In this document: positions 1 to 15,020 of the stretch, piece by piece
How the letters are laid out: each line of letters starts with the position of its first letter
How positions within the stretch are numbered: the first letter of the stretch is position 1
Made by a program: the position numbers and the translations under genes
From: Rhodospirillaceae bacterium
GTDB lineage: Bacteria; Pseudomonadota; Alphaproteobacteria; Bin65
Length of the DNA stretch: 64,000 nt
Direction: 5' to 3'
Assembly: GCA_009840595.1 (NCBI GenBank)
Contig: VXNK01000038.1
Coordinates: 1 to 64,000 of the forward strand
The notes under the pieces: model-generated
What the model saw: only the letters and a program-made list of their open reading frames with translations
Told to the model about the DNA's origin: nothing
Database searches by the model: none

Positions 1-40
1 GAGAGCGTCAGCCATGACTGACCCTATCGTTGCGCCTCGC

Positions 41-178
41 GGCACCCCCACCCGGCTCGCTTCGCTCGCCGACTTCTCCCTCTGAAGAGGAGGTATAGGG
101 ATGAACGGCTGCCATCATTATCCTTCCCCCTCTTCAGAGGGGGAAGTGGCCGAGCGCAGCGAGGTCGATGGGGGTGCC
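41..178. repeat. Inverted pair of palindromic repeat units (A: 41-93, B: 122-178), left flank of DUF559 element
   Basis: ggcacccccacccggctcgcttcgctcgccgacttctccctctgaagaggagg versus reverse-complement-like ccttccccctcttcagagggggaagtggccgagcgcagcgaggtcgatgggggtgcc. Confidence 0.8.
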
Positions 179-708
179 GTCCGCATCGCCTTCAAGGTGG
201 CAACTTCCTCTCGAATCGTCGCCAGCACGCCTTCGATATTGTTCATCACCTCGTTGTTCCAGAAACGGATGACGATATAGCCCTGAGATTCAAGCCATGC
301 CGTGCGGGCCGCATCTTTTTCGACTTCGACGCCATGCTGGCCGCCGTCGACCTCGATGACGAGTCGGAGCGAGGGGCAGACAAAGTCCGCAACGAATTTT
401 CCAATCGGCTCCTGCCGTTTGAAGCGCAGACCGTCCAGTTGCTTCTTGTGCAGGAAATACCAGAGGCGCTTCTCGGCGTCCGTCGGCTGTTTTCGCAATC
501 GCTTGGCCAGTTTCTTGGCGAATGCCGCCCGCTTGACGCGGCGGTCCTTTAATTCTTCCCCCTCTTCAGCGGGGGAGAGGTGGCCCCGGATTAAATCCGG
601 GGTCGATGGGGGTGTTCTGGAGCGATGTCCGACGGCACCCCCACCCGGCTCGCTTCGCTCGCCGACCTCCCCCTCTGAAGAGGGGGAGGTATGAAACTCC
701 GCTACCAT
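118..708 (-). CDS. DUF559-type (Vsr/PD-(D/E)XK-like) endonuclease domain protein embedded in repeats
   Basis: Core KQPTDAEKRLWYFLHKKQLDGLRFKRQEPIGKFVADFVCPSLRLVIEVDGGQHG...YIVIRFWNNEVMNNIEGVL is typical of DUF559. N- and C-terminal tails are translated repeat units; start is uncertain (ATG 708, or TTG 498). Confidence 0.7.
   Translation of the reverse strand: MVAEFHTSPSSEGEVGERSEPGGGAVGHRSRTPPSTPDLIRGHLSPAEEGEELKDRRVKRAAFAKKLAKRLRKQPTDAEKRLWYFLHKKQLDGLRFKRQEPIGKFVADFVCPSLRLVIEVDGGQHGVEVEKDAARTAWLESQGYIVIRFWNNEVMNNIEGVLATIREEVATLKAMRTAPPSTSLRSATSPSEEGEG
555..690. repeat. Inverted pair of palindromic repeat units (C: 555-616, D: 634-690), right flank of DUF559 element
   Basis: cttccccctcttcagcgggggagaggtggccccggattaaatccggggtcgatgggggtgtt and ggcacccccacccggctcgcttcgctcgccgacctccccctctgaagagggggaggt; same family as 41-178 and 14864-15020. 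Confidence 0.8.
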
Positions 709-709
709 C

Positions 710-3535
710 TTATTCCGCCGCCTGGGCGAAGGCGGCGGTGGCGATGTTGCCGTCGTAGGAGCCCATTTCCTCGACGGCGAGCGGCTTCTGGAGATGCTTC
801 TCCGAGGCCTTGTAGACCTTCACGCACACGATGTCCGAGCCGGAGCCGGTCGAATCGGTGAGCTTGAGCGAGATGTCGGTCACGCTGTTCAGGCTCGGCC
901 GGTTGAGATCCTTGGCGAAGGGCGTTTTCCAGTGGTCGAACTGGCCGATCATCAGGACCGTATCCGGGCGGATCCCCTCGCGCAGCACGGCCGGCCCTTC
1001 GGTGCGCCCGGTGACCGATTCCACGACGACCTGCTCGCCGTCTTCGATGCCCAGGTCCTGCGCCCGGCGCCGGTTGATCATGACGCCGTTGTGGCCGGCG
1101 ATGTTGTCGGCAACCTCGGCAATCAGCGGCAGGCCGACATTGGCGCCCCAGGCATACTGGAAGGAGCGGGCGGTGAGGGCCCAGAACGGATATTCCGCCG
1201 GGTCGCGGCCGAAATCGCGGACGTAATCCTCCCAGATTTCCGGGAAGGATTCGTAGGTCGGCATGAACTCGTATTCGCGCAGCTGGGTTTCCCACCAGTC
1301 GACGCCGATCTCGCCGAGGCGCAGCGCCAGTTCCTGGCCGTGCCGGGTCAGCCGTTCCTGGTAGGGCAGTTCGAAGCGCAAATTCTGGTCTTCCAGCGCC
1401 GGGTAGATATACCAGTCGAGCTGGTTGTAATCCTTCAGCATGTAACCGTGTTCGCGGAACCAGTCGAGGTCGCGGACCTGCTCGCCGCCGGTCATGTCCC
1501 ACGACGCGGCCTTGCACATGTTGTCCCAGACGGTTTCCGACTCCGGCGGCTCGCCGGCCGGCAGGCTGAAATCGTATTTGCCGGGGCGGGCCAGTTTCGT
1601 ACCCGCCGCGCCGCCGTTGATGGCGCCGATATAGGCGTCCAGGATTCCGGCCTCCTGGGCGAAGCGGGTCATGATGTCCGACATGTCCATCGTGTCGTTG
1701 ACCGGATCGATCGCCTTGGCGCGGATCGTCCAGCCTTCGTGGTGCCAGAAATTCTCCTGGAACTTGGTGCCGCCGATGCGGATCAGCTGGGTCGATTCCA
1801 GGTCCGTCGATTCCGGCAGCAGCACGTCAGCGAAATGGTTGGTCTCGTCCATCGTGTAGGCGAAGGCGACGATGAACGGGAAGTCCGCCAGCTGCTTCGA
1901 CACTTCCGGCGCGTTCCACGAACTGATCGACGGATTGGTGCGGTAGCACATCCAGATGTCCGGCGGATCGTGGCGCGGCCAACTCTTCGGCTGGTGCTTC
2001 TGGAACAGCCAGGGCAGGTGCGCGGGCCCCAGGGCCGGCGACCACGGGCTGTCCGAAACCAGGGGCACCAGCGTCTTGTAGGCGTTGCGGATGTGCGGAT
2101 CGCGGTTCCAGGCGTTCGACGACGTGGCGTTGAACTGGTAGCGCATGAATCCGTCTTCGCCCGGCAGCACGGAGCCGACCCGCGACGCCGCCGGCCGGAC
2201 CAGCTTCACCGCCGTGCCCAGCGTGCCGCCCGGCACCTCGAGCGCGCCGACCAGAACGGCCAGCATGGTGCGCGCCCAGCAGGTGTGATAGCCGCCCCAG
2301 CCGTTGTTCACGCTCTTGCCGAGCAGGATGGCGACCGGCCGGAAGGGCAGGGTCTTCCCTTCGATCTCGATGGTCTCGCCGACGCAGGCATGGGCGATAT
2401 ATTCGTCGGCAACCCGCCGGATGGTCTCGGCCGGCACCTCGCACTCGGCCTCGGCCCATTCCGGCGTGTATTCCGCCATCAGGTCGAGCATGAGCTGGAA
2501 GGACGGTCTGGCCGTCACCCCTTCGTGGTCCCAGCGCGTGTTGTCCGGCCCCAGTTCGTAGCCGTCGACCGTGTAGGCGCCCTCCATGGCAGGGTCGCCG
2601 ATATCGGCGTCGTAGGGCTTGGCCGCGCCGTCGGCGGCGTCCCAGATCAGCGGCTTGCCGTCCGGGTCGCGGACGAAAAAGCCGTTGGGGCCGACCAGGT
2701 AGGGCGAATTCGAGCGGTTCTTGAGAAACGGCACGTCGCATACATCCGCCCAGCCGCGCTCGTGCACGATGCGGTGGATCAGGGCGAACAGGAAGGCGGC
2801 GTCGGTCTTCGGCTTGATCGGCACCCACTCGGCCGAGGCCGCCGCCGTGATCGACATGTGCGGCTCGACATGGACGCGCTTGGCGCCGCGCGCCCTTGCG
2901 TTGGCCTCGCGCCAGATGCCGACGACGCCGGACTGCGCCTCGGTGTTCGCGCCGCAGTTGAGGATGAAGTTCACATAAGGCGTATCCGGCGCGACGATGA
3001 AGGCGCGGTGCCACAGCTCGCCGTAGAGATGCTCGGAGTGATAGCACTTCACGCCCTGGCCGGCGCCGAAGCCCTGGTCGATGGGCCCCCAGGCTGCCAT
3101 GAAGGCCGGGAAGGTGCCCATATACTGCACCGGCGTGCCGCCGCCGCCGGTCGAGGTCGCGAGGCGCGGATGGCCGTTCTCGTTGACCAGCCCCTTCGCG
3201 CGCACTTCGCGGAATTTCTCGCCGATGATCCCGAAGGCCTCTTCCCAGGAGATCGGCACGAAGCCCGGATCCTCGTCCCGCCCCTTGTTCGGGTTGGTCC
3301 GCTTCATCGGCTGCTTGATCCGGTTGGGATTGTAGGTCTTCTGGATCAGGCCGAACGCCTTGACGCAGACCCGGCCGCCGCCGGGATGCTCGTCCATGAT
3401 GTCGAAATTGGCTTCCAGCCGTTCCGCCACGCCGTTGCGGACGGTGACCTTCGCCAGGTCCGGCCCCGCTACGCACTGGTAGCAGTAGAAGGGAACCTTC
3501 TTGACGTCGTCTGCGGGAGCGCCGGCTTTGGCCAT
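710..3535 (-). CDS. Molybdopterin-dependent oxidoreductase, large subunit (DMSO reductase superfamily)
   Basis: MAKAGAP start; FYCYQCVAGPDL..., ISWEEAF, ILNCGANTEAQ, TMDETNHFADVLLPESTDLE, C-terminal dinucleotide-binding region NRRRAQDLGIEDGEQVVVES. Confidence 0.85.
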   Translation of the reverse strand: MAKAGAPADDVKKVPFYCYQCVAGPDLAKVTVRNGVAERLEANFDIMDEHPGGGRVCVKAFGLIQKTYNPNRIKQPMKRTNPNKGRDEDPGFVPISWEEAFGIIGEKFREVRAKGLVNENGHPRLATSTGGGGTPVQYMGTFPAFMAAWGPIDQGFGAGQGVKCYHSEHLYGELWHRAFIVAPDTPYVNFILNCGANTEAQSGVVGIWREANARARGAKRVHVEPHMSITAAASAEWVPIKPKTDAAFLFALIHRIVHERGWADVCDVPFLKNRSNSPYLVGPNGFFVRDPDGKPLIWDAADGAAKPYDADIGDPAMEGAYTVDGYELGPDNTRWDHEGVTARPSFQLMLDLMAEYTPEWAEAECEVPAETIRRVADEYIAHACVGETIEIEGKTLPFRPVAILLGKSVNNGWGGYHTCWARTMLAVLVGALEVPGGTLGTAVKLVRPAASRVGSVLPGEDGFMRYQFNATSSNAWNRDPHIRNAYKTLVPLVSDSPWSPALGPAHLPWLFQKHQPKSWPRHDPPDIWMCYRTNPSISSWNAPEVSKQLADFPFIVAFAYTMDETNHFADVLLPESTDLESTQLIRIGGTKFQENFWHHEGWTIRAKAIDPVNDTMDMSDIMTRFAQEAGILDAYIGAINGGAAGTKLARPGKYDFSLPAGEPPESETVWDNMCKAASWDMTGGEQVRDLDWFREHGYMLKDYNQLDWYIYPALEDQNLRFELPYQERLTRHGQELALRLGEIGVDWWETQLREYEFMPTYESFPEIWEDYVRDFGRDPAEYPFWALTARSFQYAWGANVGLPLIAEVADNIAGHNGVMINRRRAQDLGIEDGEQVVVESVTGRTEGPAVLREGIRPDTVLMIGQFDHWKTPFAKDLNRPSLNSVTDISLKLTDSTGSGSDIVCVKVYKASEKHLQKPLAVEEMGSYDGNIATAAFAQAAE

Positions 3536-3596
3536 GATCGATACCCGGTCGGAAGGAATGGCAGGCGCGAGAATAGCACGCTTTGCGGCACGCGGC

Positions 3597-4004
3597 TCAA
3601 GCTTCGGCGAGGCGCGCCTTTTTCTTCGCCAGGCGGCCGCCTTGCTTCGCCTTGTCGATGACGAAGCGGATGTGCCGAGCCCGGCCGACATGGTCGAGCT
3701 CGTCATGGACGTTGACCTCGAAGACGACCCGCGGGCCCTCGACGTCCACGACTTCGGCGCGCACCGTCACGCTCTGGCCGATCAGGGTCGGACCGAGATG
3801 GTCGATTTCGACCCGCGCGCCGACCGAATCCTCGCCGTCGTCATGGTGCCGCAGCAGCAGTTGCCGGCAGGTCTGCTCGATGTCCTGCACCATGCGCGGC
3901 GTGGCGTAGACGCGCAGCTCGTCGCCCATGAAGGCGATGGTGCGGTCCGTGTCGATCGCGATCGTCTCCTCGTGGGCGACCCCGGCTTTGAGTGTGTCTT
4001 TCAT
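3597..4004 (-). CDS. Thioesterase family protein (hot-dog, FlK-like)
   Basis: MKDTLKAGVAHEETIAI...YATPRMVQDIEQTC...VGARVEIDHLGPTLIGQSVTVRAEVVDVEG. Confidence 0.7.
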   Translation of the reverse strand: MKDTLKAGVAHEETIAIDTDRTIAFMGDELRVYATPRMVQDIEQTCRQLLLRHHDDGEDSVGARVEIDHLGPTLIGQSVTVRAEVVDVEGPRVVFEVNVHDELDHVGRARHIRFVIDKAKQGGRLAKKKARLAEA

Positions 4005-14863: not shown

Positions 14864-15020
14864 CCTCCCCCTCTTCAGAGGGGGAGGCCAGGTGGGGGTG
14901 GCGCGGCGCCCGTTTCCGTAGCGGGGCGCGCTTCGCCGCAAGGCGAATTCTCTGGCGGCCCAAAACACCCCCATCCCCTCCGCTGCGCTCCGGGACTTCC
15001 CCCGCTGAAGCGGGGGAAGG
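14864..15020. repeat. Composite palindromic element lacking an internal gene (same family as the DUF559 flanks)
   Basis: cctccccctcttcagagggggaggccaggtgggggtg (E) ... acacccccatcccctccgctgcgctccgggacttcccccgctgaagcgggggaagg (F). Confidence 0.8.

Follow-up and report, generated by a model that had tools for sequence, protein, structure and literature searches.

BoxC/PIT repeats have been known in the Escherichia coli genome since the 1990s, and to our knowledge neither an enzyme nor an origin has been found for them. We likewise know of no established function for DUF559, a widespread protein family. Here we describe a 64,000-nucleotide stretch of DNA from a Rhodospirillaceae bacterium (contig VXNK01000038.1, assembly GCA_009840595.1; the whole stretch is called the window) in which a DUF559 gene is surrounded by copies of a repeat that by its sequence belongs to the BoxC/PIT/intrastrand triplex motif (TM) family of E. 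coli. We consider it probable that single-domain DUF559 proteins of the YcjD type and BoxC/PIT/triplex repeats make up one two-part system, selfish or semi-domesticated, that resembles RAYT/REP. What we observed is association of gene and repeat, a rule of orientation, covariation of stem and tail, cognate pairing, co-occurrence across genomes, presence/absence polymorphism and purifying selection; from these we infer that the protein binds DNA, cleaves it and disperses or mobilizes the repeats.

The E. coli motif folds as a triplex in solution, and BoxC/PIT/TM repeats occur in over 260 genomes and have been linked to genome instability (Holder et al. 2015, PMC4666352). The window repeat has the same pyrimidine (Y) arm, loop, purine (R) arm, short YYR linker and tail mirroring the R-arm. 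Additionally, the DUF559 flanks of Desulfobacterales (loci L131 and L137) match E. coli copies (CCCTCGCCCCTYTGGGGAGAGGGTTAGGGTGAGGGG) almost letter for letter. Unlike the repeats as previously described, those studied here are tied to a nuclease gene, and the window family differs in its stem (CCCCCTCTTCAGAGGGGG), which is its own, and in a second hairpin that often separates stem from tail. The CGTC-tagged REPs are also abundant alphaproteobacterial palindromes, often dimers, and are said to have no dedicated transposase (Di Nocera 2013, PMC3733652). We considered them as the identity of the repeat and set them aside, since stem and tag sequences and structure differ.

The RAYT/REP systems (TnpA-REP, REPINs, REPtrons) offer the closest parallel in architecture. 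As in those systems, a slowly diverging, single-copy nuclease gene lies between inverted palindromic repeats, inverted pairs of the same repeat are dispersed in the genome, and the type of repeat is specific to the enzyme. However, the enzyme is PD-(D/E)XK/Vsr-like and not an HUH Y1 transposase, and the repeats are triplex motifs that are not visibly GTAG-tagged. No HUH family was among the Pfam/NCBIfam matches of the window enzyme, and no GTAG tag was seen by eye at the displayed repeat ends, for which no separate search was made. Because enzyme and tag differ, the DUF559-repeat system is RAYT/REP-like in its working but not a member of that group. An earlier reading of the window, made from sequence only, had suggested this resemblance; architecture, cognate pairing and genome-wide co-occurrence agree with it, while mobilization and cleavage would follow by inference.

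The DUF559 gene and its repeats in the window

The gene occupies positions 118-708 of the minus strand and, starting with ATG at 708, encodes a DUF559/YcjD-like protein of 196 amino acids (aa), a predicted PD-(D/E)XK (Vsr-like) nuclease whose N- and C-terminal extensions are translated repeat. Its DUF559 domain (Pfam PF04480; aa 65-169, positions 202-516) was matched with an E-value of 5e-41 and 139.3 bits against a cut-off of 20.6. The ExDG..H..D core is kept, with E55, D57, G58, H61 and D68 invariant in 22 DUF559 sequences. Between congeners, the ratio of nonsynonymous to synonymous substitutions (dN/dS) in the domain is about 0.08-0.11; the domain is therefore under purifying selection and the protein is maintained. 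No second DUF559 copy accompanies the window gene in the 4.1-Mb draft genome (G000), giving a copy number of one.

Four copies of one repeat, named D, C, B and A in gene orientation, lie around the gene. The arms form two inverted pairs, I1 (120-181/631-692, 84%) and I2 (40-93/126-179, 83%). The sequence-only reading had placed a DUF559-like nuclease between two inverted pairs of the same repeat (A/B and C/D). That reading also held that the open reading frame (ORF) runs on into its flanking repeats. Indeed, D and C lie in its 5′ part and B forms its C-terminus, all three translated in the ORF's frame just as that reading gave them, but copy A lies outside it. Likewise, TTG at 498 is, as claimed, the sole ATG, GTG or TTG between the ATG at 708 and the domain; this codon, number 71, falls within the domain, which begins near aa 65, rather than ahead of it. 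Read by eye, congeners G001 and G004 conserve both the repeat-external ATG and an open frame through D and C, their repeat spacing is off by 6 bp, a multiple of three, and in G004 a further possible start, GTG in frame, lies downstream of repeat C and ahead of the domain.

The repeats have two unlike ends. The LE type, CCTCCCCCTCTTCAGAGGGGGAGG-YCA-GGTGGGGGTG, is seen in D (633-692, minus strand), a triplex motif within the 5′ part of the ORF in which the hairpin comes before the tail when the minus strand is read (CCTCCCCCTCTTCAGAGGGGGAGG...GGTGGGGGTG), and in A (40-93, minus strand), which together with its flanks matches the single repeat found at the congeners' empty site. The RE type, CTTCCCCC..GGGGGAAG followed by a further hairpin that precedes GATGGGGGTG, is seen in B (123-179, plus strand), a triplex motif that encodes the C-terminus and consists of CTTCCCCC...GGGGGAAG, a hairpin2 linker and GATGGGGGTGC. 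Repeat C (about 552-615, plus strand) is also of RE type, has the second hairpin CCCCGGATTTAATCCGGGG in the minus-strand reading, and was assigned by inspection, the triplex finder not having called it. The tails of both D and B point toward the gene.

The same ends are dispersed without the gene. The window holds 10 matches to the core CCCCCTCTTCAGAGGGGGA with up to three mismatches, where 0.01 would be expected. With up to two, the matches in G000 number 50 forward and 50 reverse, and the reversed control gave none; because the core is nearly palindromic, this amounts to about 50 sites and not 100. Most G000 repeats form inverted pairs, 100-130 bp apart with hairpins outward, and the dispersed pairs are about 145 bp long. 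One such REPIN-like pair in the window has its left end at 14864-14901 on the plus strand (a triplex motif, CCTCCCCCTCTTCAGAGGGGGAGG-CCA-GGTGGGGGTGG) and its right end at 14968-15019 on the minus strand (CTTCCCCCGCTTCAGCGGGGGAAG..GGGGATGGGGG). Since the nuclease unit reads LE(D)-RE(C)-ORF-RE(B)-LE(A), it and the short pairs have both ends in common, a likeness to insertion sequences and their MITEs.

The repeat is a purine-tailed hairpin whose tail mirrors the stem, and not a plain palindrome: the G-rich tail after the hairpin repeats the purine arm in mirror order, T standing opposite A (GAGGGGGAGG / GTGGGGGTGG). An intrastrand triplex motif is by definition a Y-arm/R-arm hairpin followed by a tail mirroring the R-arm, with G placed over G and A or T over A. 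The finder called window repeats B and D and the copy at 14864-14901 with at most one mismatch. The earlier reading thus had the dispersed repeat beside the nuclease gene right, but what it took for a private 55-60 bp repeat is a form of the known BoxC/PIT/triplex family. We also took 113 hairpins picked regardless of their tails. The triplex fit of each tail to its own stem averaged 0.801, compared to 0.718 ± 0.008 for permuted tails, and the highest value among 2000 permutations was 0.746. The tail base was A or T opposite 156 of 188 stem A positions and opposite 106 of 799 stem G positions. The excess over permuted tails therefore suggests that the ability to form a triplex is conserved across repeat families with different stems.

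DUF559 genes and triplex motifs across bacteria

A single scan for relatives of 22 DUF559 domains yielded 80 loci spanning Alpha-, Beta-, Gamma- and Deltaproteobacteria, Chloroflexi, Nitrospirae, Spirochaetes, Melainabacteria and others. When the two 350-bp flanks of each gene were scored for inverted repeats, the locus's own flanks ranked first in 62 of 76 loci; L104 is among the 62, but its very high score is an artefact that comes from runs of masked N. The triplex finder, which requires a stem and a mirror tail, placed a motif within 400 bp of the gene in 73 of 77 loci and on both sides in 58. Motif density was 3.59/kb near DUF559 and 0.10/kb more than 1 kb away, about 36-fold lower; reversed sequence gave 7 matches near the genes. 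The orientation of the nearest motif is also regular, its tail pointing toward the gene in a ratio of 59:7 upstream and 58:7 downstream. In another set, 51 loci chosen mainly by hidden Markov model from class, phylum and family samples, every gene had a motif near it (51/51), at 3.38 versus 0.13 per kb, with one match in the reversed control. Preferential flanking of DUF559 genes by such repeats, on which the sequence-only reading had staked its suggestion, is thus found in both sets.

Within a genome, each gene is paired with its own version of the repeat. In several multi-copy genomes, the two arms of a locus scored 34 for similarity, and arms taken from different paralog loci of the same genome scored 13. 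G004 has two DUF559 genes: one lies at a junction between an oxidoreductase (molybdopterin-type) gene and a ferredoxin-type gene and carries a CTTCAG repeat, and the other lies between dnaN and recF and carries a CCCCTCCCCTTGGGGGAGGGG repeat (neighbors identified by eye). G022 has eight paralogs, mostly 35-65% identical, each with its own repeat variant. Among these eight, protein identity correlates with repeat similarity (Mantel r = 0.70, p = 0.00085, n = 8), and host phylogeny cannot produce this correlation because all eight share one genome.

Gene and repeat also co-occur across genomes, as judged from a pattern of 3′ arm plus tail for the repeat and from a strong match for DUF559. The pattern was present in 49 of 77 alphaproteobacterial genomes with DUF559 and in 13 of 213 without (290 genomes; odds ratio 27, p = 1e-23). 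In a phylum-wide sample of 228 genomes from the other classes, the figures were 33 of 41 and 19 of 187 (odds ratio 36, p = 5e-19). Genomes are phylogenetically non-independent, so both p-values overstate the certainty. Being narrow, the pattern leaves out the repeat family of the window itself, and its reversed control was not clean in the clade of G000.

The association extends to E. coli, whose DUF559 gene, reached by tblastn, is annotated ycjD. YcjD has long been predicted to be a PD-(D/E)XK nuclease (PMC1189080). In strain MG1655, ycjD lies at 1351407-1351760 and a triplex motif at 1351204-1351239; this motif is exactly BoxC number 9 in Table 1 of Holder et al. (PMC4666352), and K-12 has 23 BoxC sites. 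Of 5426 E. coli genomes, 3365 carry most of the ycjD region, with 80% or more of the query covered. Between fabI and sapF, ycjD alternates with eefRABCD in E. coli (PMC12817139), and the BoxC repeats at this place (L298 in MG1655) may explain this exchange of ycjD with the efflux operon.

Sites that vary among relatives

The DUF559 unit of the window lies between a molybdopterin oxidoreductase-like gene and a gene for a 4Fe-4S (ferredoxin-type) protein, both named by eye, and this site varies among relatives. The unit is present in G000, G001, G004 and, in a different form, G007; a single repeat stands in its place in G002, G003 and G005; and G006 and G009 have neither. Repeats D and A form a direct repeat, and their left flanks are alike.

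Synteny between the window and its congeners stops after about 6.4 kb, and for dispersed pairs we therefore compared the joined flanks of ten repeat pairs. G000 and G002 are filled at the L027 site, which is empty in G001, G004 and G005. The L009 site is empty in G005 and holds a CTTCAG pair in G000 and G004 and another repeat family in G001 and G002. Such unlike triplex-repeat families in one gap of different congeners (L265, L266, L268, L269) suggest hot gaps or replacement of repeats. Repeats are also polymorphic between G491 and G599, two members of another genus at about 85% identity. The unit and the dispersed pairs are therefore both present in some relatives and absent from others, a polymorphism whose lack would have spoken against the sequence-only reading.

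A candidate enzyme for the repeat

How might such a system work? The nuclease gene would be an element bounded by two inverted triplex motifs with their G-rich tails inward, and dispersed motif pairs would be its non-autonomous copies. In single-stranded DNA, such as arises at replication, the stem and tail of the repeat could fold into a hairpin or triplex. The DUF559 protein, a relative of Vsr and homing endonucleases, may recognize its own folded repeat, probably single-stranded and in a family-specific manner, and nick or cut at or near the motif. Repair or strand transfer would then copy, move or delete the repeat unit, so that the gene stays between two repeat copies while short units disperse or go. 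In its widest form, this proposal makes DUF559/YcjD the dedicated mobility enzyme of BoxC/PIT/triplex repeats throughout bacteria: a new class of triplex-ended mobile elements whose sole protein is a Vsr/homing-type nuclease, convergent with RAYT/REP, and which have been active in E. coli itself. We lean toward this wider claim, if only slightly.

The window protein is a close homolog of 3hrl, in which the DUF559 fold is solved (E-value 8e-37), the DUF559 profile matches the mobile-intron endonuclease 3r3p (I-Bth0305I; E-value 6e-4), and a DUF559 gene has been placed in the EDxHD homing endonuclease family (PMC9403480). Unlike EDxHD homing endonucleases, to which it is related at this profile level, the gene here stands alone in an intergenic gap, with no intron or intein, and the ends of the element are structured repeats. 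We also considered a role in anti-phage defence, for which the PADLOC matches were weak.

Several observations weigh against a mobile two-part system. Judged by 80% coverage, the ycjD region is missing from about 38% of E. coli genomes, and the exact motif searched is absent from 28 of the 77 alphaproteobacterial genomes with DUF559, in part owing to the narrowness of the pattern. Many repeats are present yet no DUF559 gene was found in G002, G350, G440, G508, G606 and G610. Because D and A are direct repeats, loss by recombination between them accounts for the single-repeat sites at least as well as insertion does. At orthologous sites, including those of G491 and G599, local identity is about 80-95%, too low for a clean insertion junction or a target duplication to be made out. 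Finally, mismatch repair has been suggested, without biochemical proof, as the role of VsrA, a DUF559 protein of Caulobacter (PMC12907096).

This last point belongs to the main rival, which we consider unlikely, though it is the strongest of the alternatives. It holds that a Vsr-like, structure-specific repair or quality-control nuclease removes or resolves triplex and hairpin structures or mismatches, limiting the repeats rather than spreading them, and sits beside them for regulation or by hitch-hiking. DUF559 and Vsr belong to the same nuclease superfamily, and the DUF559-bearing VsrA, the proposed VSP repair enzyme, leads to an SOS response in Caulobacter cells without a cytosine methyltransferase (PMC12907096). 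Single-copy maintenance and purifying selection also fit a repair role. However, similarity to Vsr is weak (19.8 bits against TIGR00632, far under the cut-off of 97.85), and we did not accept Vsr mismatch repair as the protein's identity. No methyltransferase, solitary or otherwise, was seen beside the gene in the window. Moreover, repair does not predict matching inverted repeats on both flanks, a separate repeat variant for each paralog within one genome, or repeats that are commoner in genomes with the gene.

A second possibility, which we regard as quite improbable, is an ordinary minimal transposon: the triplex motifs would serve as terminal inverted repeats for DUF559 acting as a true transposase, and the dispersed pairs would be simple MITEs that move by classical cut-and-paste. 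Autonomous and short units do have common ends, two DUF559 copies on different contigs of G582 share a 619-bp stretch at 97% identity, which points to recent duplication, and the Legionella anisa copy (L143) has long flanking inverted repeats. Against this, most genomes have one or a few diverged copies and not a near-identical family, the gene is kept at one site through several related species, and the catalytic domain of about 105 aa stands without the usual DNA-binding and multimerization parts of a transposase. Quite improbable, too, is that the repeats are landing pads or recombination hotspots between which functionally unlinked DUF559 cassettes were captured: gaps are permissive, as unlike repeat families in one gap of congeners indicate, and repeats persist without the gene, but passengers would not give paralog-specific repeats with two matching arms, a tail-inward rule of about 9:1 on each side, or near-universal flanking across phyla.

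Its place between inverted copies of the BoxC/PIT repeat across many phyla makes DUF559 the first concrete candidate enzyme for spreading or maintaining that repeat. Joined in this way, DUF559 and BoxC/PIT each become a likely explanation of the other, triplex-forming DNA gains a candidate biological reader, and the question becomes testable in E. coli K-12 through ycjD. If the two-part system is real, the REP/RAYT way of life would have evolved twice, with unrelated nucleases. We found no paper tying DUF559 or YcjD to BoxC/PIT/triplex repeats in the open-access literature, subscription papers and preprints being outside the search.

The congener G002, in which no DUF559 gene was found, has about 25 and 30 copies of the two repeat families, perhaps a relic repeat population. 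Many contigs of these drafts begin or end inside TTGGGG-type triplex repeats (in G000, C14:10-30, C15:8-28, C17:94-114 and C77:28-48); the repeats thus break assemblies, and repeat-flanked DUF559 genes may be missed. The L. anisa locus (L143, 5824-6490) is a longer, IS-like form whose flanking inverted repeats of about 150 bp start TTAGGTAA; in L. pneumophila, segments with transposase and DUF559 are reported to be recombination hotspots (PMC12308824). In the window, the oxidoreductase-like neighbor occupies 710-3706 of the minus strand, its function read by eye from sequence without a family search. Some loci carry motif arrays. In G315 (L286, 1937-3060), a tandem array of AT-richer motifs with a unit of about 94 bp lies downstream of the DUF559 gene; in L130 (5781-5956), an array of alternating CCCTCTCCC/GGGAGAGGG hairpins lies directly upstream; and in Neisseria gonorrhoeae (L297, 2993-3687), a tandem series of triplex motifs lies downstream of a DUF559 gene whose product resembles the 3hrl protein.
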